64,000 nucleotides of DNA, from contig JAPUER010000029.1 of NCBI GenBank assembly GCA_027492485.1, positions 23,559-87,558 of the forward strand. The letters run 5' to 3'. Below, piece after piece: positions 3,897 through 64,000 of the stretch. Under the pieces are notes generated by a model. The model ran no database searches and had not been told where the DNA came from. It saw only the letters and a program-made list of their open reading frames with translations. Position numbers and translations under genes: made by a program. Each line of letters opens with the position of its first letter. The stretch's first letter is position 1. This DNA is from Betaproteobacteria bacterium. Lineage in GTDB: Bacteria > Pseudomonadota > Gammaproteobacteria > Burkholderiales > Casimicrobiaceae.

Positions 3897-4409
3897 TCAA
3901 GCGACTAATTTGCGCATGCGGATCGGCTGCAATGCACCCGCAAACACCGTCGAAAAAGTGCGGTCGGCTTCGACGCTGAAGCCAAGCTTTTCGAAATACG
4001 CCTTGTACTGCGGCGAATACGATTCGACCGGGATGCGAATCGAGCGTATTTCGGACTGTTTGGCCAGACGCTCCAGCGTGTCGAGCAGCAGTGTGGTGAA
4101 GCCACGACCGGAGAAAGTGCGGGTCACGCCCAAGCGGCGCAATTCCCAACTGCCGTCGCGTGCCTTCACATACGAGAGTGCGGCCACGGGGAGGTTGTTG
4201 CGATAGAGCACCAAGCCGCCGCCTGCGCGCAGATCGTCGGCAATCTGAGTCGGGTTGTCGTTCTTGCGCCGCTGCGAGATGGCAACGCGCTCCGACCAGT
4301 CGCCCTTGGTCAATGCCGAAACGACCGGCGCGTCGCGCGAGCTGGCTTTGAGAATCTTGTACTTATCCTGCTCGAAAACGGTACGGGTCGCGCCGAATAG
4401 GGTCTTCAT
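3897..4409 (-). CDS. GNAT-family N-acetyltransferase
   Basis: A 170-residue single-domain GNAT acyltransferase. The C-terminal half carries the acetyl-CoA-binding pattern ([27 protein letters not shown]), with R-G-x-G-F replacing the usual R/Q-x-x-G-x-G/A. The substrate is unknown. Its ATG overlaps the metG stop codon as ATGA, so the two are probably translationally coupled and transcribed together. The pairing says little about substrate. Confidence 0.8.
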
Positions 4410-49856: not shown

Positions 49857-51989
49857 ATGCTGACCGCAACCAAAAAGTCCATCGAGTATGGCAAACACAC
49901 CCTCACGCTTGAGACCGGCGAAATCGGTCGTCAGGCCGATGCCGCCGTGCTCGTCCGTTATGGCGACACCGTGGTGCTCGTCTCCGCCGTCGCCAAGACG
50001 AGCGTGAAAGAAGGCCAGGACTTCTTCCCGCTCACCGTGGACTATCAGGAGAAGTTCTACGCCGCCGGCAAGATCCCCGGTGGCTTCTTCAAGCGCGAAG
50101 GCCGTCCGACAGAGAAGGAGACGCTGACCGCGCGCCTGATTGATCGCCCGATCCGCCCGCTGTTCCCGGATGGCTTCTACAACGAAATCCAGGTCATCGC
50201 GACCGTGATGTCGATGGACCCGGAGATCGATCCGGACATCCCTGCGATGATCGGTGCCTCGGCCGCGCTGTACCTGTCGGGCGTGCCGTTCGCCGCCCCG
50301 ATCGCTGCCGCCCGCGTCGGCTACGCCAATGGCGAGTACATCCTGAACCCGACCGCGACCGAACTCAAGACGTCCGAGATGGATCTCGTGGTCGCCGCGA
50401 CCGAGACCGCCGTGATGATGGTCGAATCGGAAGCCGCTGAGCTGCCCGAAGACGTGATGCTCGGCGCCGTGTGGTGGGGCCACGCCCAGCAGCAGCCGGT
50501 GATCGACATGATCATGGCGCTCGGCGAAGTCGCCGGCAAGCCGGCCTGGGACTGGCAGGCTCCTGCGAAAGACCCGGCACTGGTCGCGAAGGTCGTCGAG
50601 ATCGCCGGCCCGGGCTTCGATGAGGCCTACAAGATCAAGTCGAAGAGCGCGCGCAGCGCCAAGCTCAAGGAAGTCTCCGCTGCCGCCGAGGCCGCGCTGA
50701 TTCCGGCCGACGCCGATACGCTGACCAAGAACAACATCAAGAACGAGCTGTTCGCCCTCGAGGCGAAGACCGTTCGCGAGCAGATCCTGCGCGGCGAGCC
50801 GCGCATCGACGGCCGCGACACGCGCACCGTGCGGCCGATCTCGATCCGCACCGGCGTGCTGCCGCGTACGCACGGGTCGGCACTGTTCACGCGTGGCGAA
50901 ACGCAGGCGCTGGTCGTCGCGACGCTCGGCACCAAGCAGGACGAGCAGATCATCGACGCGCTGGGCGGCGAATACCGCGATCGCTTCATGCTGCACTACA
51001 ACATGCCGCCGTTCGCTACTGGCGAAACGGGCCGCGTTGGCTCGCCGAAGCGCCGCGAAATCGGCCACGGCCGCCTCGCCAAGCGCTCGCTGGTGACGGT
51101 GCTGCCGCCCGAAAAGGACTTCTCGTACTCGATGCGCGTCGTCTCGGAGATCACTGAATCGAACGGCTCCTCGTCGATGGCCTCGGTGTGTGGCGGCTCG
51201 CTGGCACTGATGGACGCTGGCGTGCCGCTCAAGGCCCCGGTTGCAGGCATCGCAATGGGCCTGATCAAGGAAGGCAACCGCTTCGCCGTGCTGACCGACA
51301 TCCTCGGTGACGAGGATCACCTGGGCGACATGGACTTCAAGGTGGCCGGCACCGACCGTGGCGTGACCGCGCTGCAGATGGACATCAAGATCCAGGGCAT
51401 CACCAAGGAAATCATGGGCGTTGCGCTGGCTCAGGCCAACGAAGCGCGTCGTCACATCCTCGGCATCATGCACGAGGCAATGCCGCACAACCGTACCGAG
51501 ATGAGCGCCTACGCACCGCGAATGATCACCTTCAAGATCAATCCGGAGAAGATCCGCGACGTGATCGGCAAGGGCGGCGCCGTTATCCGTGCGCTGTCGG
51601 AAGAAACCCGTTGCCAGATCGACATCCAGGACGATGGCACCATCACCATCGCCTCGCCGAACGCCGACGACCTCGCCGAATGCAAGCGGCGTATCGACGG
51701 CATCACGGCCGAAGTAGAAGTGGGCAAGGTCTACGAAGGCCCGATCATCCGCATCATGGACTTCGGCGCCGTGATCCAGCTGCTGCCTGGGCGTGACGGC
51801 CTGCTGCACATCAGCCAGATCGCCCATGAGCGCGTCAACGCCGTCACCGACTTCTTCAAGGAAGGCGACCTGGTCAAGGTCAAGGTACTCGGCTTCGACG
51901 ACAAGGGCCGTGTCAAGCTGTCGCGCAAGGTGCTGCTTGACGAGCAGGCTGCTGCTGACAATGCGGACGCAGGCAACGCACCGCAGTAA
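49857..51989 (+). CDS. pnp: Polyribonucleotide nucleotidyltransferase (PNPase)
   Basis: Phosphorolytic 3'-5' exoribonuclease of the degradosome; 710 residues. Two RNase PH domains (about 1-220 and 305-545) flank the helical domain. [21 protein letters not shown] and [26 protein letters not shown] mark the active site. The KH domain ([20 protein letters not shown]) and S1 domain ([34 protein letters not shown]) close the protein. AGAAAGG precedes the ATG. The last 480 bp recur at 60244. Confidence 0.98.
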
Positions 51990-52012
51990 ACGGCTCGTTC
52001 CTTGTAGAAAAA

Positions 52013-52036
52013 ACGGGGCTTCGGCCCCGTTTTTTG
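52013..52036 (+). terminator. Rho-independent terminator of pnp
   Basis: ACGGGGC, a TTCG tetraloop and GCCCCGT form a tight stem followed by TTTTTTG, 23 bases after the pnp stop. It is a textbook intrinsic terminator. Confidence 0.9.
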
Positions 52037-52101
52037 TTCGTACGAGTGATTGTGCAGATCAGTCCGCTATCGCCACTCCGCCTTGTTGCCGCCGCCGCGC
52101 T

Positions 52102-53832
52102 CTACGGTGCGACTGCAATGCCACATTGCGATACAAGATAGTGACGAACGGCCGTCCAGTTGTTGCGAGGCCCGCTCAACGTGATGCCTTGCAGGACCGA
52201 AGGCCCAGACATGCCGAGCGCCACACGGGCGATGATGAGCGCGTCCGTGGTCGCGCCCACACGTCCATCGCCGTCCACATCCATGGTGCACATGCGTGCG
52301 CCGAATGGGCCACCATTGAGTCGCGCAATACAGGCCATGTTGATGCCACCGGCCCCCTCGCAGGCACCAGCAACCAGCAGTTTTCCGTCTGACTGCAGTG
52401 CCAGCGCGCGGGCGGCGTCATTTCTCTGCCCTACCGTACTCATCTCCAGATTGACACGGCCATTGCCATAGCCGGTCGGTCCGTCGAAAGAGGCATCGAG
52501 CGCACCGTCTGGTGCGAGCCGTGCGACGCAAAAGTTGTTCTCATTGAGCAAACTGCACAGCCCGATCAGAACGATGCGCCCGTCGGGCTGGACGGCGATT
52601 GCGGTGACCTGATCGTACGTTTGCCCCATCGGGAAGACCGCGACACCGCCACCGCCGCCAGCGGACCCCTCGAAACGGTCATCCAGAGTGCCGTCGCCGT
52701 TCAGTCGCACCACCGCGAAATGACTGGCGCTGTTGGACACGACCGAACGACCCGCAATGAGCACGCGGCCATCGGGTTGCAGCGCTGCGGCGCTGACGTT
52801 TGCCTCGATCGCACCGACGGCGTAGGCGACGCGTCCAGTCCCGATGCTGCCACTGTTGTTTGAAAACGTGGCGTCAAAGCTGCCGCTGCCGGTGAGGCGT
52901 GCAGCGCAAAAACTGCGTTTGACGTTGGGATCCGTGTTCGGCCAGCAACTGCCAGTGACTACCAACCTTCCGTCTGCTTGTTGCAGCAACCCCGCAGCGT
53001 CAAAATCATAGGCACCGACCGGGAAGCGCACCAGACCATTGCTATTGGCCGGCGGCGGACCTGAGAACGTGGTATCCAGTGTCCCGTTACTGTTGAGCCG
53101 GATCACACAAGCTTCGCTGTACACGCCAGCGTTCATCGACACTCGGCAGTCACCGGAAATCACAATTTTCCCGTCTGGCTGAACCAGTACATTTCGTGCC
53201 CGTGCAATGCCCAGATTTGTGAGCAGCGCGCGACCAGCGCCATTCTGGTTCGGCCCGACAAACGTCGCGTCCAGCGTTCCGTTGGCGTTCAGGCGCGCGA
53301 CGCAAAACTGGTAGCCCACCACGCCATCCCAACACTCACCGGCGAGAACCATCTTGTCATCCGCTTGCATGGCGATGGCGTTGGCCCGGTCATCGGTGGC
53401 ATGTTGCGGCAGTGCGAAGCCTCCATTGCCGTTGCCCGTGGCGCCAACAGGCCCGACGAACGTTGTGTCGAGGCCGCCATTGGCGGTGAGACGCTGTACG
53501 CACATCGCCGGGTTACCGTTCGTGGCAGCGTTCGAGCAGTAACCAGCCAGCACAATGCTGCCGTTCGGCTGCGTAGCAACGGCCAGGACATAGGCGTTGC
53601 CACCGGGAACGACCGCGAGATTGGCAATCCTCCCGGTACCGCTCGCAAAACCTGCAGGAGCAGGGGCGTCGTCAAGCGTACCGGGCACGGGTTCGACGCC
53701 ATGCGCCGGGTTGAGTACAAATGCGGTCAGCGCTGCCGCTATGGTCAGCGCAGTGGGGTAGTTGCAGCGCACGCTAACCGGTACGAAGCGGGATGACAGA
53801 CAACGGGCAATCGGGGGACGGGACAGTGTCAT
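52102..53832 (-). CDS. Exported Delta-60 repeat protein with dockerin-like tail
   Basis: A 576-residue secreted protein. The signal region is about 25-45 (LTIAAALTAFVLNPAHG). Seven Delta-60 repeats follow, each about 55-75 residues with the form A-x-x-x-Q-P-D-G-K-I-V-L-x-G...C-V-x-R-L-N-x-N-G-T-L-D-x-T-F; together they should build a propeller. The C-terminus has a calcium-loop MDVDGDGRVGATTDALIIAR, resembling half of a dockerin or EF-hand pair. It is divergent from a regulator across about 150 bases. The function is unknown, likely adhesive or structural. Confidence 0.85.
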   Translation of the reverse strand: MTLSRPPIARCLSSRFVPVSVRCNYPTALTIAAALTAFVLNPAHGVEPVPGTLDDAPAPAGFASGTGRIANLAVVPGGNAYVLAVATQPNGSIVLAGYCSNAATNGNPAMCVQRLTANGGLDTTFVGPVGATGNGNGGFALPQHATDDRANAIAMQADDKMVLAGECWDGVVGYQFCVARLNANGTLDATFVGPNQNGAGRALLTNLGIARARNVLVQPDGKIVISGDCRVSMNAGVYSEACVIRLNSNGTLDTTFSGPPPANSNGLVRFPVGAYDFDAAGLLQQADGRLVVTGSCWPNTDPNVKRSFCAARLTGSGSFDATFSNNSGSIGTGRVAYAVGAIEANVSAAALQPDGRVLIAGRSVVSNSASHFAVVRLNGDGTLDDRFEGSAGGGGGVAVFPMGQTYDQVTAIAVQPDGRIVLIGLCSLLNENNFCVARLAPDGALDASFDGPTGYGNGRVNLEMSTVGQRNDAARALALQSDGKLLVAGACEGAGGINMACIARLNGGPFGARMCTMDVDGDGRVGATTDALIIARVALGMSGPSVLQGITLSGPRNNWTAVRHYLVSQCGIAVAP

Positions 53833-53987
53833 GTTGGGGGAAGGTGGATGTTGGCGGAGAAAATGTAGATGCGACCCGGCGCAGCACGGTAGTCAAAAAG
53901 CGAAAACAGTAGGCGAAAAGCGCAAGCATCCGACCAGGTGTCGCAAAATGCGCGCAAGCAGATTCCACTGTGTCGCCAGACGGCCAA

Positions 53988-55460
53988 ATGTTCCCGAGAA
54001 TGGTTGACGATGTAATGTCCGACGCTGCCGCGCTCGCCCGTGCTGCCGAGTTCGCCGCGTTCAACGGACAGCTCGAAGACGCCCAGCAACTACTTGAGCG
54101 TTGCACGGACAGCTTGCCGCAGGAGCCCGCAGCGGAGGGTGCGGTGGCGCTGGCGCGCGCCGAACTTGCCTTTCAGCGGTCAAACTATGCCGAGGCTGCT
54201 GCACTTGCCGACCGCGCAGCCACGCGACTCCTGCTCGTTGGCGATGCCGAGGGCGAACTGCGGGCGCTGGAGCTGCACCCGCGCGTCTGGGCACGGCATG
54301 GTGAGGAAGAGCGTGTGCAGCGTCGCTGCGAGCAACTGCTCGAGCGCTGGCGCGCGAGGACCGGGAACGAGGCTGTCGAAGGTCAGGTTCGATGTCTCAC
54401 CCTCATTACCTTCATGCACGCACGCCGGTTTCGATACGAGGATGGTATTGCAACCGGTAGTCTCGCGGTGCGTCTTGCCCGCGACACTGCGCGCATGCAT
54501 TCCCTGCTTCCGCGCGCGGCCAACGCACTTGCGGGGTTGCATTTCGCCAAAGCCTGCGCCCTGCATCCGGCGACCGGATGGGCTTCGCACATTACGTCCC
54601 TGGCGCCGACGGACCACCCTGATGTGTTGGAACACTGCAGAGTCGCGATGGCGCTGCTCGGCGAGGTGCGACCGTACTCGAAAGCCGGCGGCAACCAGTA
54701 TCAGGATGCGCTGATCGGATCGAACATGGGGCAATTGCAGGTACTGATGGGAGCCCCTGACGCCGCGCTTCCAGACATGCAGCGTTTTCTAGACGTCAGT
54801 CGGCAACGCCAAAACCGTTACATGGAGGCCGATGCGCTGCAGGCCATCGGCTGGGCGCATCTGGTGGGTGGACGATTGCCCGACGCGCAGGCAGCGCTGA
54901 TGCATGCACTCGGTATTGCTGCATCGCTGCAGGCCGCACCGCTGCTGATCACCATTCACTACGACCTGTCGACGATTCTGGAGCGGGCGGGCGAGGTTGC
55001 GCGGGCGTTGCACCACTATCGCGAGTACGCACGACTCTGGCGACGGGCGCACCAGCAACTGGCGGCTCAGCCGTCACCGCATGCGCGACGCCGGCTCGAG
55101 CCCTTCTACCTTAAGCGCGCGGAGGCACTGATCCGCGCATCGCTGCCTCATTCGCCGTCAGCTGAAGAGATCGCCCAGCACTCTGGCGCGTCCATTCGAG
55201 CGGTACAACTGGCGTTTCGCGAGTATCGTGGAATGACACCGCACAAGTATTCGCTCGCGTTGCGCTATCAGGCTGCGCACGACGCGCTGGCATCAAGGCA
55301 GGCGGCACGCGGCATTGGTCAGATTTGCAGCGAACTCGGATTTGATGACCCCTCACGATTTGCGCGTGAGTTTCGCAAGCGCTTTGGCCTGCTTCCGTCC
55401 GCGTTCAGTCGTGATGCAGAGCCAGGCCGGAATCGGGCTTCGGCCGCAGGTGGCGTGTGA
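53988..55460 (+). CDS. Transcriptional regulator with TPR-like N-terminus and AraC-type HTH
   Basis: About 490 residues. The first about 370 form Ala/Leu-rich helical repeats like tetratricopeptide units (AAEFAAFNGQLEDAQQLLE, ALQAIGWAHLVGGRLPDAQAALMHAL), with no receiver or cupin sensor. The C-terminal about 100 residues are an AraC HTH pair (EEIAQHSGASIRAVQLAFREYRGMTPHKYSLALRYQ and ICSELGFDDPSRFAREFRKRFGLLPSAF). The start is ambiguous among GTG 53970 and ATGs at 53988, 54000 and 54015. It probably controls the divergent Delta-60 gene or the downstream exported-protein genes. Confidence 0.82.
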   Translation: MFPRMVDDVMSDAAALARAAEFAAFNGQLEDAQQLLERCTDSLPQEPAAEGAVALARAELAFQRSNYAEAAALADRAATRLLLVGDAEGELRALELHPRVWARHGEEERVQRRCEQLLERWRARTGNEAVEGQVRCLTLITFMHARRFRYEDGIATGSLAVRLARDTARMHSLLPRAANALAGLHFAKACALHPATGWASHITSLAPTDHPDVLEHCRVAMALLGEVRPYSKAGGNQYQDALIGSNMGQLQVLMGAPDAALPDMQRFLDVSRQRQNRYMEADALQAIGWAHLVGGRLPDAQAALMHALGIAASLQAAPLLITIHYDLSTILERAGEVARALHHYREYARLWRRAHQQLAAQPSPHARRRLEPFYLKRAEALIRASLPHSPSAEEIAQHSGASIRAVQLAFREYRGMTPHKYSLALRYQAAHDALASRQAARGIGQICSELGFDDPSRFAREFRKRFGLLPSAFSRDAEPGRNRASAAGGV

Positions 55461-55665
55461 GCCTGACTCCGACTTGCGATTCCTGCCTGACGCGGCATCA
55501 TCCCTTGCGTAGAGCGGAACATTGCAGCCGTGCGACGCACGTGTACGCCGCAACAGGCAAAAAGCGCAAGTCGCGTGACTGGCCGCCAAAAAGGCATGTG
55601 GGCGAGTGCGTGGCCACAGCCCTGACGATGCAGATCATTCATACTCTACCGGAGGGGACAGTCAC

Positions 55666-56442
55666 ATGGTTAACAAACATGGAGCTACGGTCGCGCGCCT
55701 GGCGTGGCTCGTCGGCGCGATGCTGGGCGCGACGATTGCTGCGGCTGCGGACGACCGTATCGAGGCGGTGTCGCTGATGCGCGACGACGGCGGCAAACCG
55801 GGCGCCATTGTTGCCCAGTTCACACCACAAGATCGCAAGCAGCACTTCGCCGTCAAGTTGCGCAAGCTGGAACTCGGCAAGAACCGCTTCCAGGCCCGTT
55901 TTGTTGGAGTCGAAACGGCCGCGGGCAACAACGTTGAAGTGTTCAGGACCGGCGACATCGGCAACTCACTGATTGCCAACACCATTACCGCGCAATTGTC
56001 CCTGCCCCGCGACTGGCCGCTCGGACGCTACGCTATCGAAGTGGTGATGAATGACCAGCCCATTGGGAGGCGCGAATACATTGTGTCGCCGGAGTGGTCG
56101 AAGCAGGCTGTCGAACGATGGATCCTGTACGCCGACGACGGCAAAGGCAATCCGACAGAACGCAAGCTCAGTGCGTTCAGCACGAAACAGCGCACACTGC
56201 ATTTCGAAGCCCAGACGTCCGGCTATGTGCCACGCGGCGCGCGCGTGACTTGGGTGTTGCGCACTCAGGCGGGGCAGGAGGTCATGCGTGGAGACAACAC
56301 CGTTGGCAAAGACTCCCAGGTATTCAATCGACTTACTTCGTTTGTCACATTGCCGCGGGACTGGCCAATCGGTGGCTACACCATGCAACTTCTGGACGGA
56401 ACGCGGGTTGTCGGCGAACACAAATTCAACGTGACGCAATGA
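55666..56442 (+). CDS. Exported protein with two tandem beta-domains (unrecognised)
   Basis: A 258-residue protein with a signal peptide (cleavage near IAAAAD). The mature part contains two similar modules. LSLPRDWPLGRYAIEVVMNDQPIGRREYIV and VTLPRDWPIGGYTMQLLDGTRVVGEHKFNV align end to end, so it is an internal duplication of an Ig-like beta fold. A strong GGAGGGG ribosome-binding site precedes the ATG. Its stop overlaps the next ATG (ATGA), making it the first gene of a coupled unit. Probably periplasmic; no known family was identified. Confidence 0.72.
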   Translation: MVNKHGATVARLAWLVGAMLGATIAAAADDRIEAVSLMRDDGGKPGAIVAQFTPQDRKQHFAVKLRKLELGKNRFQARFVGVETAAGNNVEVFRTGDIGNSLIANTITAQLSLPRDWPLGRYAIEVVMNDQPIGRREYIVSPEWSKQAVERWILYADDGKGNPTERKLSAFSTKQRTLHFEAQTSGYVPRGARVTWVLRTQAGQEVMRGDNTVGKDSQVFNRLTSFVTLPRDWPIGGYTMQLLDGTRVVGEHKFNVTQ

Positions 56443-57617
56443 CAAGCACACGACGCAAGGCAGGGGCGGTCACGGCGGCTTTGCTGCCGCTGTTGTCGGC
56501 GGCGGCAGGCATACTGCACGCCGCAGAACCCCCCGTTTTCCCCCAGAGCACGACTGGAGCAACGATCGCCACGCGCGTTGCGCCAATGGCGCATGGGCGC
56601 GTTGTGCACTTTGCCCTCACGCCAGACCGGACCCATGCCGTGCTGTTCGAGCGCATCGCGCCGCCCGGTGCCAACGCCGTGTGGCAACTCCGGGTGCTTG
56701 ATGACAGGGGGGGCACGTTGCGTGAGCGCAGGCTGCGTCCTGGCTACGACCCCACGCAACCCGACATGTACTTCACGGATCGCGGTGAACTATTGATTGA
56801 CGACGGCAGCTACTTCTATGTTGTGGATCTCCACACGTTGCGTACTGAGCAGACGCCACAATGCCGCAAGCACGCTTATCCCGGTCGCGATGCGCATGCT
56901 GCGGAGATTGAAACGCAGCTCCGCAGCGATCGCACGGCGGAGCTTGCCCGTCTTGCCCGGGCGCATGGTGTGCGCGAGGCGGATGTGGAAGGCGAGGATC
57001 TTCGCACGTTGCCGGTACCGATCGTCGAGGCGCGACGGCGCTGGGCACAGACACTGGGCGAGCAAAAGAGCCGACTGATAGAAGCGCGTTACATGGCGCT
57101 GATTGAGCGATTTGCAGCGGCTACGCCAGAACTGGTGGGTATTCAGGTGGAACGGCCACAGCTCACGTCCTACTACGTTCGTGTGAACGCTGACGGCAAG
57201 TACTGGTACTGCGATCTCGAAGGCCGTGCGCAGAAGTACGCCGTGCGCTGGGCGCGGCGCGCAGGGGCCAAGGGTGTGACGCCGCTCTCCCTGACGCGCG
57301 GCGAACTCACCCGCGAAGGCGACGTTGTCCATGACGGCCCGGCGTCGATTCAGGTGCTCAAGGCCTCCCGTACGACGCCGTGGACGTGCTCGTGGCAGGT
57401 GGGGTGCGTGGACCGCTCTGACTATCGCTTGCGGCTGGCTGGATTGCCAGGGCAGGCCGCGCCTGTCGAGGTGGCGACGAAAGATGGCAGCCTATCGCGC
57501 GGACTAGCAGGCGGTGGCGCGTTCCGGTTCGCCAATGGGCACTGGTTGCTGGAGCACGACGGGCTGTACCTTTTCACCGCGGCATCCGCGATTCCCAGTG
57601 GCAAATCGACGCCATGA
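56439..57617 (+). CDS. Exported hypothetical protein
   Basis: A 392-residue protein with signal peptide (about 8-28, cleavage near LHAAEP). The next part looks propeller-like (HFALTPDRTHAVLFERI, YFTDRGELLIDDGSYFYVVDLHTL). A helical stretch rich in Arg/Ala/Glu follows (about 155-220). The C-terminal beta region has a Cys set (YWYCDLEG, WTCSWQVGCVD). No family is recognised. It is translationally coupled to the gene before it, and the following gene starts just after it. Confidence 0.68.
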   Translation: MTSTRRKAGAVTAALLPLLSAAAGILHAAEPPVFPQSTTGATIATRVAPMAHGRVVHFALTPDRTHAVLFERIAPPGANAVWQLRVLDDRGGTLRERRLRPGYDPTQPDMYFTDRGELLIDDGSYFYVVDLHTLRTEQTPQCRKHAYPGRDAHAAEIETQLRSDRTAELARLARAHGVREADVEGEDLRTLPVPIVEARRRWAQTLGEQKSRLIEARYMALIERFAAATPELVGIQVERPQLTSYYVRVNADGKYWYCDLEGRAQKYAVRWARRAGAKGVTPLSLTRGELTREGDVVHDGPASIQVLKASRTTPWTCSWQVGCVDRSDYRLRLAGLPGQAAPVEVATKDGSLSRGLAGGGAFRFANGHWLLEHDGLYLFTAASAIPSGKSTP

Positions 57618-57932
57618 CCCCGCATCATGAAAATCCCCACTCTACAGGCGTTCACGGCGATCTGCGGATCGCTCGCCGTCGCAGCACAAGATTGGGCGAC
57701 CCGGGTACGCACACCACGGCAGGTCGGCAGGTCTGCGCTGTCCCATGTCAAGCAGCGGCGCGGGCGCGACAGTGCTGCGCCCCGGCGCGTCTTGCCGCAC
57801 GACGTCGCCGCAGCCATGACGTTGGTGCGCATCGCGCTCATCGAATTTGCCTGGCGTGACGAAAGCGCCGCAGCGATTGCCCACGTCCAGCGCCATACGA
57901 GCACTGGCAGGACTGTTGATCGCACGCCGGCG

Positions 57933-59045
57933 ATGCGACCACACGTTCAACGTCGACCGCGACAGAAGCACTGTGGCGCGGTTGTCGCAGTGGTCTTGAG
58001 CGTATGGCTCGTGCTGTTGTTGATGCCCGCGACGGTCTCTGCCCAGCAAATGACTGCCCAGCCCACAAGCGCTGCTTGGTCGGGGGCATCGGTCATTCAT
58101 CGCGCCGATCATCCGCGCGTGGTCAGCACCGACCGTGATCGCATGGTACTTCTCGTGGCACCATTTCTGCGTGGAGTGCAGGACGGTACGAGTGGATTGC
58201 TTTCGCTGCATCTTGCGATGCCCGCCATTGCGCCTGAAATACTGTTCCGCAGTACCACCGACTTGCTGCCGAACCACCTCGCGCCCGTTCTGGATGATGG
58301 CACCCATGTCTACTGGCTGAGTGGCCTACGCATCATGCAGACCAGCAAGACCACCCGACAGTCTCGACAGTTGAGCGACAAAGGTGCGCTGGCGATGGCC
58401 GTGCACGGAAACGCGATTTACACCTTCAATCACAACAATGAGCGCAAGTTGTTGCGCGTTGACTCCAAGACCGGAGAGGTGCGTGAAGTTGCAAAACTGC
58501 CCTTCGTGGCAAGCTCGCTGCACGTCGATGCCAATGGCGCGTGGCTGCTGACCACGCCCTCACCGCTTCGGCAAGTCACTGCGATTGTGCGCTTCGACTT
58601 CGGCAATCGCCAATGGGCAGCCGTGTACGCGTCTGCCGATGCGCAGACGCAAATTCGCGCTCTGGTACCGGTGGGCGAAGCGAACACCATGCAGTCCGAC
58701 GCGACGTTCCGCAGCATGTATTTCGTCGAACGCAATCTCGTGAAAAACCGTGCGGTCGTACGACATCTCAACGTACTCACGGGCATCATCACTGCCCTGG
58801 ACATTGATGCGATTGATGAGCTTTCACCTATCAAGGCGGATGAGTTAGCGCTTTACTACTTTGCCCCGGAGAGTCGCCAACTCAATTCGCCGATGTTGCT
58901 GTATCGGTACTCGGACGGCAGCGGCAAGCAGCTGGTGAGTCGAGGCACCACGTGGCCAACTAGCATGACCATACAGAGGTTCGATAGCAAAAGCCGCGCT
59001 CTCGTTTGGACTGACATCACTTGCGTGTATTCGCTCAGTTGGTAG
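57933..59045 (+). CDS. Exported hypothetical protein, propeller-like
   Basis: A 370-residue form starting at the ATG that gives a convincing signal peptide (basic RRPRQK, then a hydrophobic core, cleavage near VSAQQ). An upstream ATG at 57627 extends the same frame by 102 residues, but that extension is basic, lacks a signal and looks less protein-like. The mature part has repeated beta phrases such as GNAIYTFNHNNERKLLRVD and HVDANGAWLLTTPSP, like a propeller. No family is recognised. It probably works with the two preceding exported proteins. Confidence 0.65.
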   Translation: MRPHVQRRPRQKHCGAVVAVVLSVWLVLLLMPATVSAQQMTAQPTSAAWSGASVIHRADHPRVVSTDRDRMVLLVAPFLRGVQDGTSGLLSLHLAMPAIAPEILFRSTTDLLPNHLAPVLDDGTHVYWLSGLRIMQTSKTTRQSRQLSDKGALAMAVHGNAIYTFNHNNERKLLRVDSKTGEVREVAKLPFVASSLHVDANGAWLLTTPSPLRQVTAIVRFDFGNRQWAAVYASADAQTQIRALVPVGEANTMQSDATFRSMYFVERNLVKNRAVVRHLNVLTGIITALDIDAIDELSPIKADELALYYFAPESRQLNSPMLLYRYSDGSGKQLVSRGTTWPTSMTIQRFDSKSRALVWTDITCVYSLSW

Positions 59046-59311
59046 TGGCATTGAACGACTGTCGAGCCATGCGCCATACAAGGCGCAGCACGTCCGTGCA
59101 CCTAAGTCATCGCCGGATTTCCGGACGAACACAGAGTTTGTACTCGTTGGTCTCTGGGCGGTTTCCTGGCGCGTCGCCGCAACGGTTGTCGTGGTGGGTG
59201 GCTTTATCGCCGGCGGGATACATTGACTAGGGACAGGCCGGCGGGCTGCGCCACACCGGATGACCTGTTCGCGTGGTGGCGTCGCAGGATGCCACGGGAG
59301 GGCCACCTGAG

Positions 59312-59792
59312 TCAGTATTCCAGCGATATTCGCAGTATGTCTTCGTAGGTTCCGCCCGGCAGGTCGACATAATCGCACACGCGGATCCGGGCGTCCAGTC
59401 TTACCTCGGCGGACCGCTGCCAACCTGACGCGATCCTGCGGTCACCCTGAGTTGCAAGCTCGTAGGGCATAGCCTCACCACTGAACCGACGCAAGGTGCG
59501 CATGCCACATCGCGGATCAAATGCTCGTCCGTTGTCTACCAAAACACGGTAAGTCGTGCCGCGAGTGCAAGCCACTCGAACCAGACCGAAAGCAGCGCCA
59601 TCGGTCGCGCGTCCCGGGTCGAACCCCCCCCGAACGGCACGTCGCCGGAGGATTCGATCCGGCACCGCGGCACAACGACTGCGCTCACCTCAAATGTTGC
59701 CAGGTGCTCCTGCGCATGCGCGGCGCCACCGCGTTCGCGCTGGCGAGAACGACAAGGAAAATTCGAAGGCTTCGCGCAGTCGACAGGCTCAC
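59312..59792 (-). pseudogene. Frameshifted spore coat U (SCPU) domain protein
   Basis: Three reading frames must be joined to recover a plausible SCPU protein. A GTG-initiated signal peptide (LRIFLVVLASANAVA) comes first. Then LATFEVSAVVVPRCRIESSGDVPFG lies in a second frame. Finally FDPGRATDGAAFGLVRVACTRG to GGTYEDILRISLEY lies in a third. The second shift falls in an 8-C tract at 59624-59631. SCPU proteins are secreted pilin-like subunits. No usher or chaperone gene is nearby. The 266 bases between the previous gene and this one show nothing recognisable. Confidence 0.65.
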
Positions 59793-60009
59793 GGCAGCGC
59801 GCGTTTCGCTTCGAGAAGTCGGGCGGACAAGAGGCGCTGGATCGGCGGAGGCGCTGGTATGGTCTGAATCTCCCGGTGTGCTGCGGCCCGGTTTTCGCGG
59901 TCCAGCGCAGCGTCAATCCGTACAACCGCAATGGTGATTGCTCGTCGCAAGGACGCAGGGCGCAGTCGCAATCGCTGCAAGGGAAACGCCGACGGCAATT
60001 GCCGGGATT

Positions 60010-60243
60010 AAGGCAACGCTGAACAAGCCGTCGGAATCGGCGAGATGAGGTGCGAGGGTAGAAGATCAAGGAAGCGGGGTACGAATTCATCGAAACTCGC
60101 CCCGGGAGGTGCACGCGGCGAGCGCGAAAGCGTCCCCGGCGCCCGCAGCGGACGCACCCATGCCAAGCTCCTGCGAGCCAGGTACAGATTGGCCAGACCC
60201 AGCACCACGAGCGAACGCGTGGCGTTCTTGGCTAGTTGCACGA
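60010..60243 (-). mobile_element. Remnant of an IS5-type transposase 3' end
   Basis: The minus-strand frame reads [25 protein letters not shown], resembling the C-terminal GLAKNxAxxxxLFALANLYLxRRxL of IS5-family transposases. The frame is open at its upstream end, where it meets the pnp fragment. GGCAACGCTGAACAAGCC at 60013-60030 looks like an IS terminal sequence. Everything upstream of these about 25 conserved residues is missing, so it is a truncated relic. Confidence 0.5.
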
Positions 60244-60255
60244 TACGCGCCGCGC

Positions 60256-60723
60256 ATGGTTACTTTCAAGATCAATCCGGAGAAGATCCGCGACGTGATC
60301 GGCAAGGGCGGCGCCGTCATCCGCGCGCTGTCGGAAGAAACCCGCTGCCAGATCGACATTCAGGACGATGGCACGATTACCATCGCTTCGCCGAACGCCG
60401 ATGACCTCGCCGAATGCAAAAAGCGTATCGACGGCATCACGGCCGAAGTGGAAGTGGGCAAGGTCTACGAAGGTCCGATCATCCGCATCATGGACTTTGG
60501 CGCCGTGATCCAGCTGCTGCCGGGCCGCGATGGCCTGCTGCACATCTCGCAAATTGCCAACGAGCGTGTCAACGCCGTCACCGACTTCTTCAAGGAAGGC
60601 GACCTGGTCAAGGTCAAGGTGCTTGGCTTCGACGACAAGGGCCGCGTCAAGCTGTCGCGCAAAGTGCTGCTTGACGAGCAGGCGGCGGCGGACAACGGTG
60701 GCGCTGGCAACACGCCACAGTAG
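60256..60723 (+). CDS. Second copy of the PNPase C-terminus (KH-S1 fragment)
   Basis: A 155-residue frame whose KH and S1 domains match the end of pnp. The homologous block (60244-60723) has the same length as 51510-51989, 480 bp with no gap. By eye there are about 47 base differences but only 6 amino-acid differences. It starts at an internal ATG preserved from pnp and ends with its own terminator. There is no ribosome-binding site or RNase PH domain. It may be silent, or may yield an RNA-binding fragment. An IS remnant abuts its left edge. Confidence 0.85.
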
Positions 60724-60746
60724 TCACGCTGGTTATGACCGAAAAG

Positions 60747-60771
60747 CGGGGCGCGAGCCCCGTTTTTTTTT
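60747..60771 (+). terminator. Rho-independent terminator after the pnp fragment
   Basis: CGGGGC, a GCGA tetraloop and GCCCCG are followed by nine T residues. It is analogous in place and form to the terminator of intact pnp, suggesting that the duplicated block included the gene end. Confidence 0.88.
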
Positions 60772-60850
60772 GCGAAATTTCCGATGCTGGACGCCGTGAC
60801 GAACCCACAGCGTTTATCCTTCCACCTACCTCAGACCATTGGGTTTACTC

Positions 60851-61309
60851 ATGAGATTCAACGCTCTACCAGCATTTGCCCGTCGATCATGCCTGCTGGC
60901 AATTGCCAGCATGTCTGCTGGCTTCTTTGCCTCGGCCTCAGCGCAGGATCTCGCCAGAAGCGTTGTGGGGTCCTGGAGGCTGGTCTCGCATACCGTCACT
61001 ACGGCCGGCACGACGTTTGATTCACATTCGGCTCTCCTGCAGCAGCGCCCGTGCGCAGCCAAGATTCGCTACAACATTGGGGCTGACGGAACGTATCGCC
61101 TCGATGCTTCGGCGAGTGACTGTGACGAGAAGTACAAGTCTGCGCAACAGAAACTGTATGCCAAGACGAAGTGGAAGCTCGATGGCAACAAGATCACTAC
61201 GTCGTCGACGAATTTCGCTGTCGGCCAGACGTACAGCGCCTCAATCTCGGGTAGTCGCATGACGTGGATAGGAACCGAGGGGCAGGGGACACTGGTGTTC
61301 GAACGCTGA
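60851..61309 (+). CDS. Exported lipocalin-like hypothetical protein
   Basis: A 152-residue protein with a signal peptide (about 10-32, cleavage near ASAQD). A small beta-barrel-like mature part opens VVGSWRLVSHTV, typical of lipocalin-like stress or uncharacterised families. It also has YNIGADGTYRLD and WKLDGNKITTSST. Two Cys (RPCAAK, ASDCDE) may pair. Start ATG 60851 is preferred over a TTG 12 bases upstream. Confidence 0.7.
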   Translation: MRFNALPAFARRSCLLAIASMSAGFFASASAQDLARSVVGSWRLVSHTVTTAGTTFDSHSALLQQRPCAAKIRYNIGADGTYRLDASASDCDEKYKSAQQKLYAKTKWKLDGNKITTSSTNFAVGQTYSASISGSRMTWIGTEGQGTLVFER

Positions 61310-61516
61310 TGCAAGCGGCGCGGCGCAACAGGATAGATCGCCTTTCCGGTCGCCACCCCGCCGCAACCGATCTCGCAGAAGCTGCCGAATTGCAGCTCAT
61401 GTTGACCTTGTGGCTCGATCGGTGCTGGCAGCACTTGCACAGAATGCGGTGCAGATCGGTGCCCTTACGTTGAACAGCAGGTGCTCACGGGCGCGGGCTC
61501 AACTTTGCAGGACTCC

Positions 61517-62062
61517 ATGAACACACGGGAACAAGCCGCTTTGCTGACAAGCCTGAAGGCACGGTTCGCGAACAACCCGGCGCGCCACAAGGGGCTGAAT
61601 TGGGATGCAGTTCAGGCGCGCCTCGCCAGCTCCCCCAAAGCGCTGCAGGTACTTGCCGAAATGGAGCGTACCGGCGGCGAACCCGACGTGATCGCCTACG
61701 ACAAAGCGACTGACCAATACGTCCTTTGCGATTGTTCTGCCGAAAGTCCGGCGGGTCGGCGAAGCCTCTGTTTCGACGGAAAAGCGCTTGCCGCACGCAA
61801 GGAGAACAAGCCGAAGGGCAGCGCGCTGGATGCGGCACAGGCCATGGGTGTCGAGCTGATGACCGAGCAGCAGTACCGCCAGTTGCAGCAGCTTGGTCAA
61901 TTCGACCTCAAGACGTCCAGCTGGGTGGCCACACCAGACGAGGTGCGTGCCCTCGGCGGCGCGCTCTTCTGCGACCGTCGCTACGGCAAGGTGTTCGTTT
62001 ATCACAACGGTGCCGAGTCGTACTACGCCGCCCGCGGTTTTCGCGGTATGTTGCGCGTTTAG
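61517..62062 (+). CDS. DUF4256 family protein
   Basis: A 181-residue cytosolic protein of the DUF4256 type, function unknown. Characteristic stretches are LKARFANNPARHKGLNWDAVQARL, YDKATDQYVLCDCSAESPAGRRSLCFDGKAL and the C-terminal FCDRRYGKVFVYHNGAESYYAARGFRGML. ATG 61517 is preceded by GCAGGA. It stands alone between the lipocalin-like gene and the acyl-CoA dehydrogenase gene. Confidence 0.82.
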   Translation: MNTREQAALLTSLKARFANNPARHKGLNWDAVQARLASSPKALQVLAEMERTGGEPDVIAYDKATDQYVLCDCSAESPAGRRSLCFDGKALAARKENKPKGSALDAAQAMGVELMTEQQYRQLQQLGQFDLKTSSWVATPDEVRALGGALFCDRRYGKVFVYHNGAESYYAARGFRGMLRV

Positions 62063-62300
62063 CCAATACCTCCAGCACGGCACAGCCCTCACCACGACGC
62101 GGAGAGCGGGTGTTCCCTTGCTTTCCGAGACCAGACGTCTGTATGTCGCAGTCTTGGCGCCCTTGTTACCGGCAGTGTTGGTTTCAGCGTAGAGTGGAGC
62201 GCCTAAACTGCGGCAAAAGCAAGTTTCAAACGATAAATTGAATCGGTCGTAAGTCACAATCCAACTCAACCCGTTTTTGGTTGTTGCGAAGGAGAAAACC

Positions 62301-64000
62301 ATGCCGACTTACACCCCGCCGCTGCGCGACATGCGCTTTGTGATGGAAGAGTTGCTCGATGTGCCCGGCGAGTTGAAGGCGCTCCCTGCCCATGCCGAGA
62401 ACGACATGGACACCATCATGGCGATCGCCGAAGAGGGCGGCAAATTTGCCGCTGAGGTGCTGTTCCCGCTCAACCAGTCCGGCGATCGCGAAGGCTGCGT
62501 GCTCGACCAGAAGACGCACGAGGTCAAGGCGCCCAAGGGCTACAAGGAGGCGTACAAGCAGTTCGTCGAAGGCGGCTGGGCGGCGCTTTCGTGCGACCCC
62601 GAATACGGTGGCCAGGGCCTGCCGATCGTCGTCAACCAGTGCGTCTATGAGTTCCTGAACTCGGCCAACCAAGCCTGGACAATGTATCCGGGCCTCACGC
62701 ACGGTGCCTACGAATGCCTGCACGAGCACGGCACGCCGGAACAAAAGGCGCTGTACCTGCCCAAGATCACGACCGGTGAATGGACCGGCACCATGTGCCT
62801 GACCGAGCCGCACTGTGGCACCGATCTCGGCTTGCTGCGTACCAAGGCGGAGCCGAACGCGGACGGCAGCTACACCATCACCGGCAACAAGATTTTCATC
62901 AGCTCGGGCGAGCATGACCTCGCCGAGAACATCGTGCACCTCGTGCTCGCACGCCTGCCTGATGCGCCGCAGGGCTCGAAAGGCATCTCGCTGTTCATCG
63001 TGCCGAAATTCATCCCGAATGCGGATCAATCGATCGGTGAGCGCAACAAGATCTTCTGCACCGGCCTCGAGCACAAGATGGGCATTCACAGCAACGCCAC
63101 CTGCCAGATCGCGCTTGATGGCGCCAAGGGCTGGCTCGTTGGACAGCCCAACAAGGGTTTGGCCGCTATGTTTGTGATGATGAATGCAGCGCGCATCGGC
63201 GTCGGCATGCAGTCGCAGGGTCTCACCGAAGTCGCGTTCCAGAATGCGCTGGCCTATGCCAAGGACCGCATCCAGATGCGCTCGCTGGCGGGTCCGAAGA
63301 ATCCCGACAAGCCGGCCGACTCGATCCTGGTGCACCCCGACGTGCGCAAGATGCTGCTCACAGCGAAGGCCTACGCCGAGGGCGGCCGCGTGCTCTCGCT
63401 GTACTGTGCGCTGTTGATCGACAAGGAACTCAATCACCCCGACGAAGCGGTGCGCAAGGAATGCGCGGAGATGGTGGCGCTGCTGACTCCCATCGTCAAG
63501 GCCTTCATCACCGACAACGGCTGGATTTCGACCTCGCACTGCATGCAGGTGTTCGGCGGCCACGGCTACATCGCCGAATGGGGCATGGAACAGTTCGTGC
63601 GCGACGCCCGCATCAACATGATTTACGAAGGCACCAACACCATCCAGTCGCTGGATCTGCTGGGCCGCAAGGTGCTCGGCAACCAGGGCGCGACGCTCAA
63701 GAAGCTCGGCGCGATCATGGAAGACTTTGCCGAAAGCTGCGAAGGCGACGAGGCGATGCAGGAGTTCATCGGCCCGATGCTGAAAGCAGCCGAGCTGTGG
63801 TCCACGCTGACCTTCGAAATCGGCAGTCAGGCCATGAAAAACCCGGAAGTGGTCGGCGCCGCTGCAGTGGACTACATGCGCGTTGCTGGTCACACGGTGT
63901 TCGCGTTCTGGTTCGCAAAGATGGCGAAGATCGCGCTTGCGAAGAAGGATTCGGGCGACCCGTTCTACGCCGCCAAGCTGCAGACGGCGCGCTTCTACTT
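62301..64000 (+). CDS. Acyl-CoA dehydrogenase (3'-truncated by window edge)
   Basis: FAD-dependent fatty acyl-CoA dehydrogenase; 566 codons are present and the frame runs off the right edge. The N-terminus MPTYTPPLRDMRFVMEELL is typical of the about 590-residue FadE-like/DmdC-like group with an extra C-terminal domain. The signatures MCLTEPHCGTDLGLLRTKA and QVFGGHGYIAEWGMEQFVRDARINMIYEGTNTIQ are intact, the latter with the family's EGTNTIQ. AAGGAGA precedes the ATG. The substrate chain length is unknown. Confidence 0.95.
   Translation, partial: MPTYTPPLRDMRFVMEELLDVPGELKALPAHAENDMDTIMAIAEEGGKFAAEVLFPLNQSGDREGCVLDQKTHEVKAPKGYKEAYKQFVEGGWAALSCDPEYGGQGLPIVVNQCVYEFLNSANQAWTMYPGLTHGAYECLHEHGTPEQKALYLPKITTGEWTGTMCLTEPHCGTDLGLLRTKAEPNADGSYTITGNKIFISSGEHDLAENIVHLVLARLPDAPQGSKGISLFIVPKFIPNADQSIGERNKIFCTGLEHKMGIHSNATCQIALDGAKGWLVGQPNKGLAAMFVMMNAARIGVGMQSQGLTEVAFQNALAYAKDRIQMRSLAGPKNPDKPADSILVHPDVRKMLLTAKAYAEGGRVLSLYCALLIDKELNHPDEAVRKECAEMVALLTPIVKAFITDNGWISTSHCMQVFGGHGYIAEWGMEQFVRDARINMIYEGTNTIQSLDLLGRKVLGNQGATLKKLGAIMEDFAESCEGDEAMQEFIGPMLKAAELWSTLTFEIGSQAMKNPEVVGAAAVDYMRVAGHTVFAFWFAKMAKIALAKKDSGDPFYAAKLQTARFY

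Follow-up and report, generated by a model that had tools for sequence, protein, structure and literature searches.

Several described systems bear on how accessory DNA comes to lie beside conserved genes in bacterial chromosomes. For hot spots without mobile elements, a 2017 survey (PMC5635113) proposed exchange by double homologous recombination in the core genes on either side. For the stranded immunity genes in the type VI secretion system (T6SS) arrays of Vibrio cholerae, homology-facilitated illegitimate recombination was proposed in the study by Kirchberger et al. (2017, PMC5361080). Here we describe a locus from a betaproteobacterium of the Casimicrobiaceae (assembly GCA_027492485.1, contig JAPUER010000029.1, positions 23,559 to 87,558; this whole stretch of 64,000 nucleotides is called the window) at which the 3' end of pnp, the gene of polynucleotide phosphorylase, is present twice. 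One copy (R1) is the end of the intact gene, whereas the other (R2) is headless, lies 8.2 kb further on and is fused to a truncated transposon; this second copy sits in the interval between pnp and a conserved acyl-CoA dehydrogenase gene (ACD), and the whole block has recently been shared with another species.

The locus resembles each of these systems in part. As in the hot spots of PMC5635113, variable cargo lies between conserved genes without a detected integrase, and a block exchanged between species has its edges near core genes; that survey is statistical and covers 80 species, whereas the present case is a single locus at which one exchange appears to have left a duplicated core-gene end. 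In common with the T6SS arrays, as outlined in PMC5361080, there would be one homologous anchor, one illegitimate joint and a leftover gene (here a gene end) stranded downstream. The differences are that a housekeeping enzyme supplied the stranded tail, that the joint falls within a dead transposon and that the mechanism is read from the anatomy of the locus only. The C-terminal displacement of rhs genes, to which PMC5361080 refers by citation, likewise gives a constant upstream part a new end and leaves the old end downstream, but rhs ends differ in function, whereas the two pnp ends here encode nearly the same 159 residues. The pnpA elements of Dichelobacter nodosus (PMC2593044) also place accessory DNA beside a pnp gene. 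Those elements are described as integrating, whereas here no integrase was found and the 480-bp repeat looks, in our judgement, like a gene end and not like an attachment core. A literature search covering titles and the starts of abstracts among the matches listed returned no description of this locus, the Dichelobacter pnpA case being the nearest.

The features on which the comparison turns are given below in window coordinates; G000 is the source genome (4.12 Mb in 83 contigs) and G005 a second genome of the genus.

49857 to 51989, plus strand: intact pnp, encoding a polynucleotide phosphorylase of 710 amino acids
51510 to 51989, plus strand: R1, the in-place 3' end of pnp, encoding the KH and S1 domains
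52009 to 52038, no strand assigned: GC-rich terminator-like hairpin and T run 3' of R1
60012 to 60245, minus strand: truncated end of a DDE transposon, about 93% identical to a 1,157-bp element elsewhere in G000
60244 to 60723, plus strand: R2, the second, headless pnp 3' end, within a chimeric open reading frame (ORF) of 204 amino acids at 60109 to 60723
60742 to 60771, no strand assigned: GC-rich terminator-like hairpin and T run 3' of R2
62277 to 64000, plus strand: ACD, the right-hand conserved flank, continuing beyond the window end
49857 to 62250, no strand assigned: block of about 12.4 kb, common to G000 and G005 in nearly identical form after recent sharing between species

R1 and R2 align over 480 bp without a gap and differ at 47 positions (38 third, 5 first and 4 second codon positions), with 6 amino-acid changes between the encoded proteins. 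An earlier sequence-only reading of the window had estimated these counts by eye and had placed a separate terminator behind the second copy; exact counting returned the same figures, and the hairpin and T run at 60742-60771 agree with its terminator. Identity between the copies sets in abruptly at 51510/60244, with 5 of 30 bases matching before this point and 25 of 30 after it, and extends as far as the stop codons; the sequences upstream of R1 and of R2 are unrelated. When G000 was searched with the pnp tail and only 110 bases upstream of it, the tail matched at these two places alone. The copies differ by a synonymous divergence (dS) of 0.347 and a nonsynonymous divergence (dN) of 0.018, a distance like that between related species under normal protein constraint; for comparison, G000 and G005 stand at a dS of 0.52 in the gene of prolyl oligopeptidase, which lies nearby, and of 0.27 in ACD, and dS to the related genome G012 is 0.358 for R1 and 0.514 for R2. 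The divergence of the copies fits an R2 that sat in a working pnp elsewhere until lately and, being of between-species size, argues against a recent self-duplication, as the sequence-only reading had held from the mostly synonymous changes. A recent tandem duplication was rejected on this dS together with the unrelated sequence before the copies. Of 338 relatives of R2, 80 named loci were retained; the closest of these belong to betaproteobacterial metagenome genomes, two labelled Casimicrobiaceae. No tRNA or known RNA family was found within the window. We also considered R2 as a free-standing KH-S1 gene and set this aside: the frame is open and dN/dS is low (0.018/0.347), with no further support and no start signal identified.

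The left border of R2 shows how the second copy is attached. The 234 bases to its left are the end of a DDE transposon that overlaps R2 by 2 bp (TA at 60244-60245). The intact end of this transposon adjoins a TTAA, which is uninterrupted in the related genome G012, and faces away from R2; towards R2 the element breaks off internally, and pnp sequence starts at the break. Since an internal cut in the transposon meets sequence from the middle of pnp, this border is an illegitimate joint, and a non-homologous joint of little or no overlap is what homology-facilitated illegitimate recombination would give. The element matches the profiles DDE_Tnp_1 and DUF772 only; it is presumably of the IS5 family, a label that these matches do not back. 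Repeat and BLAST comparisons of the 8.2 kb showed no second copy of the transposon. A composite or translocatable unit mediated by insertion sequences was rejected, as the single piece of transposon detected at the joint is internally cut and has its intact end away from R2. The 1,157-bp element itself, with inverted repeats GGCAACGCTGAACAAG, is multicopy in G000, where six contigs (C64, C50, C75, C54, C34 and C53; L170-L175) end in or at it, and three relatives of it, at about 83% identity, are present in G005.

The same arrangement, with the identical 8,734-bp spacing of the copies, lies on the single contig of G005. A pnp-tail match was found in 15 of the 17 genus genomes searched, and this two-copy arrangement is common to G000 and G005 only; the sequence-only reading had named conservation throughout the family as the sign of an old tandem duplication, and only G005 among the 17 shares it. 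Outside R1 and R2, G000 and G005 differ at 1 position between 50310 and 62249 (0/1,200 bp in pnp, 1/8,022 between the copies, and 0/232 and 0/1,526 in the remaining pieces). Beyond the block their identity is 81-82% at window 20-30 kb, 83-91% just upstream and about 92% at 62500-63247 (60 mismatches in 747), which marks the near-identical block as having moved recently between species. Its edges fall within the first 453 bases of pnp, which carry 9 differences, and past 62250, at the start of ACD. In this one genome pair the exchange thus ends at flanking core genes, as in the hot spots described for such genes, and a recent double homologous recombination with its crossovers in both of these genes would leave edges of this kind.

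Within the block, the stretch from 50310 to 62249 shows 37 differences, of which 36 are confined to the two copies, 22 in R1 and 14 in R2. Over repeat positions 230-323, 14 informative sites in succession carry reciprocally swapped alleles, R1 of G000 agreeing with R2 of G005 and R2 of G000 with R1 of G005; at five more sites R1 of G005 matches R2, and at three it is unlike all three other copies. Exchange between R1 and R2 would be the simplest reading for most of these sites, not for the three unique ones, and the tract swap taken alone could stem from an error of assembly or polishing in one genome. The Pfam families of ComEC and DprA were found in 4 of 4 genomes searched. They are also common in controls (10 and 11 of 14), so that their presence allows natural transformation and does not demonstrate it.

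ACD, assigned by Pfam and synteny, is the conserved right flank in the genus, and the interval between pnp and ACD is a hot spot of gene exchange without a detected integrase. It was measured in 10 of the 17 genus genomes and ranges from 215 to 16,450 bp: 215 bp in G016, 0.8 kb in G013, 1.7 kb in G009, 2.8 kb in G011, 3.6 kb in G015, 8.8 kb in G012, 10.3 kb in both G000 and G005, 15.1 kb in G007 and 16.5 kb in G002. The same two conserved genes enclose differing gene content, which is the mark of a hot spot flanked by core genes. For example, the cargo of G012 (L034 4283-12395) is a spore-coat-U-domain (SCPU)-usher-chaperone operon with a response regulator and a histidine kinase; G011 carries a MatE transporter and a Toprim gene, G009 a GGDEF gene, and G013 one gene without a family match. 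G002 carries Tex, MFS, mechanosensitive-channel and other genes and has much of its cargo in common with G007. Of the cargo ORFs of at least 120 amino acids, the Pfam scan covered 6/6 in G012, 2/2 in G011, 1/1 in G009 and 1/1 in G013; it further covered 6/11 ORFs in G002, 1/3 in G015 (no family match) and none in G007. No integrase turned up in the scanned cargo proteins of the window (Pfam and NCBIfam), where the sequence-only reading had suggested looking for one that targets pnp, nor in the cargo scanned of the relatives, with G007 and most of G015 outside the scan. An integrase-driven island, or attachment-site insertion at a gene 3' end, was rejected on the result for the window cargo.

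The interval in G000 comprises 8,254 bp with accessory genes between R1 and R2 and a further part between R2 and ACD.

52102 to 53832, minus strand: DUF5122 (delta-60 repeat) gene, 576 amino acids
53970 to 55460, plus strand: AraC-type regulator with a TPR-like part, 496 amino acids
55666 to 56442, plus strand: gene of unassigned family, start placed by eye; the longer ORF has a sub-threshold MalQ_N match only
56403 to 57617, plus strand: gene without a family match, start placed by eye
57627 to 59045, plus strand: gene without a family match, in 2 of the 17 genus genomes (G000 and G005)
59082 to 60014, minus strand: relic of an SCPU/histidine-kinase operon, the middle of which (7.3 kb in G012) is gone
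60839 to 61309, plus strand: lipocalin-like gene, in 2 of the 17 genus genomes (G000 and G005)
61481 to 62062, plus strand: DUF4256 gene

Comparison with G012 divides this interval into parts of different history. G012 keeps the pieces common to both genomes in order: 51989-52176, then 59082-59797 and 59804-60014, which are 84% identical to the two ends of its SCPU/kinase operon, and then ACD. Window 52.2-59.1 kb is missing from G012, where a relic of the DUF5122 gene remains (its last codons only, with a stop replacing tryptophan), which suggests that the 52-59 kb part was lost in G012 and not gained in G000. The G012 locus also lacks 60015-62172, and the ACD side is common again from 62173. 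A separate stretch consists of R2 with the lipocalin-like and DUF4256 genes, and the 8.2 kb separating the copies therefore does not represent a single insertion. The sequence-only reading was right about the accessory genes there and mistaken in treating them as a single segment, since the 8.2 kb includes an operon relic common with G012 and a truncated transposon abutting R2. It had missed both the fusion of R2 to this transposon and the recent sharing of the block with another species.

Another second tail is seen in G015, 1.6 kb behind pnp and three bases after an ORF of 428 amino acids without a Pfam match. This tail is truncated; by dS it is closest to R1 of its own genome (0.42, versus 0.96 to G001), and its last residues look like those of G001. 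The two-copy arrangement of G015 differs from that of G000 and G005, and this second case shows that such scars have arisen at the hot spot more than once. As a side observation, similar C-terminal ends adjoin pnp tails in the DUF5122 gene of G000 (52102-52176), the relic in G012 (L034, about 3930-4050) and the 428-residue protein of G015 (L036 10217-11503; 39% over the end).

How did the second end come to lie there? We tentatively prefer, at somewhat less than even confidence, a one-sided homology-facilitated illegitimate recombination followed by an exchange anchored in core genes, both of which are known kinds of recombination. An ancestor would have taken up DNA of a related species carrying a pnp tail (R2), its terminator, the lipocalin-like and DUF4256 genes and the ACD side. 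ACD or the pnp body could serve as a homologous anchor; here the incoming DNA would have paired on the ACD side, while its left end joined illegitimately, with the 2-bp overlap, within an old copy of the transposon that lay in a decayed kinase gene, leaving the foreign pnp tail stranded behind the intact resident pnp. Double homologous recombination, in the core genes on either side, may later have carried the finished block, from pnp to the start of ACD, between the lineages of G000 and G005, and R1 and R2 would afterwards have exchanged tracts. Gene order favours R1 as the likelier resident and R2 as the newcomer, because G012 has the R1-side order up to ACD without R2, lipocalin and DUF4256 there. 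The pnp-body tree has G012 as the nearest relative (support 0.867). Several findings weigh against this polarity. The position of G012 as nearest relative is only moderately supported and not firm, since by dS G013 is closer both in ACD (0.53, against 0.72 for G012) and over 119 codons of the prolyl oligopeptidase gene, and G013 has neither the R1-side nor the R2-side arrangement. Over the first 161 bases R1 has 17 mismatches to G012 and R2 has 16, so that this sequence fits either copy as the resident, and trees of the tail speak for neither polarity because R1 and R2 are mosaic. A TCG serine codon in one allele of the middle segment occurs in 0 of 4 nearest relatives in the pnp-tree clade and 6 of 9 other relatives, and the swapped alleles in G005 reverse which copy holds it. 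Furthermore, no donor genome with pnp followed directly by the lipocalin gene was found among the 17 genus genomes.

The mirror image, a less probable though quite possible course, would start from a resident pnp-R2-lipocalin-DUF4256-ACD order; incoming DNA of a relative, running from pnp and R1 through DUF5122 to the transposon, would have paired in the pnp body, its transposon end joining illegitimately to about codon 552 of the resident pnp and displacing the resident tail. Such a course explains the joint equally well, requires no loss of resident DNA, finds a parallel in the G015 tail whose C-terminal end is like that of the relative G001, and profits from the infirm standing of G012. Against it, the R1-side order runs through to ACD in G012, the G000 copy of this order is already a relic, which suggests long residence, and by dS the G015 tail is closest to its own R1 (0.42) and not to G001 (0.96). 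Insertion at the pnp 3' end, with an incoming segment displacing the original end, had been the sequence-only explanation. Recombination at this place and the different origin of the two ends hold good, whereas its polarity is that of the mirror image, over which the order in G012 favours R1 as the resident. An unlikely third course is the acquisition or duplication of an entire second pnp region, for instance by recombination between transposon copies and ACD, followed by a deletion from within the transposon into the second pnp that left only R2. The multicopy transposon, at which six contigs end, would supply the left-hand homology and the joint would be a plain deletion-type junction, but two steps are required and the missing part of pnp is untraced in the G000 genome, for which the query held 110 bases upstream of the tail. 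Old duplication of the tail within the genome, with R2 perhaps kept as a small KH-S1 protein, agrees with the open frame and low dN/dS (0.018/0.347); it is very improbable given the between-species size of the divergence, the transposon (not pnp) upstream of R2, where no start signal was identified, and the restriction to 2 of 17 genus genomes. An assembly artefact would be in keeping with 83 contigs in G000, several of them ending in the same transposon, and is the least credible of all, as the single-contig G005 has the same arrangement at the same 8,734-bp spacing.

If the preferred one-sided reading is right, the locus would be an unusually legible natural case of integrase-free uptake of foreign DNA, and a clear example in that one can read from it the scar, the landing site and also the transfer onward. 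The stranded gene end marks the illegitimate joint, the dead transposon marks the landing place, and the near-identical 12-kb block in the other species marks the onward movement. For annotation, the locus warns that a duplicated gene end need not be an attachment site or a functional duplicate. We also considered, as a distinctly unlikely idea, that the pnp tails act as a RecA-dependent docking module, in which recombination of R1 with R2 excises an 8.7-kb circle and leaves an intact hybrid pnp, and the circle can re-enter any related pnp by a single crossover. The one observation behind this idea is the swapped tract, as the R1/R2 swap between G000 and G005 would then record one round of excision and re-entry through two different points. 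If true, accessory DNA would move without a recombinase of its own, with the tail of a housekeeping gene as its address.

Some further observations concern related sequences in the genus. Within the pnp tail of G006, the end of L043 (contig C626) overlaps the start of L044 (contig C143), the two being identical over about 141 bases. We did not count this as a duplication, as the overlap looks like a break in the assembly graph; a second copy hidden from view, or variation between strains, may possibly lie behind it. A DUF4256 gene with 65% identity to the one in the window is present elsewhere in G012 (L179, G012:C23, 4413-4955), with no lipocalin-like gene detected in the 9 kb around it. Finally, a second regulator of the AraC/TPR type, 44% identical to that of the window, is encoded away from the locus in G005 (G005:C1:3484462-3485868, L152).

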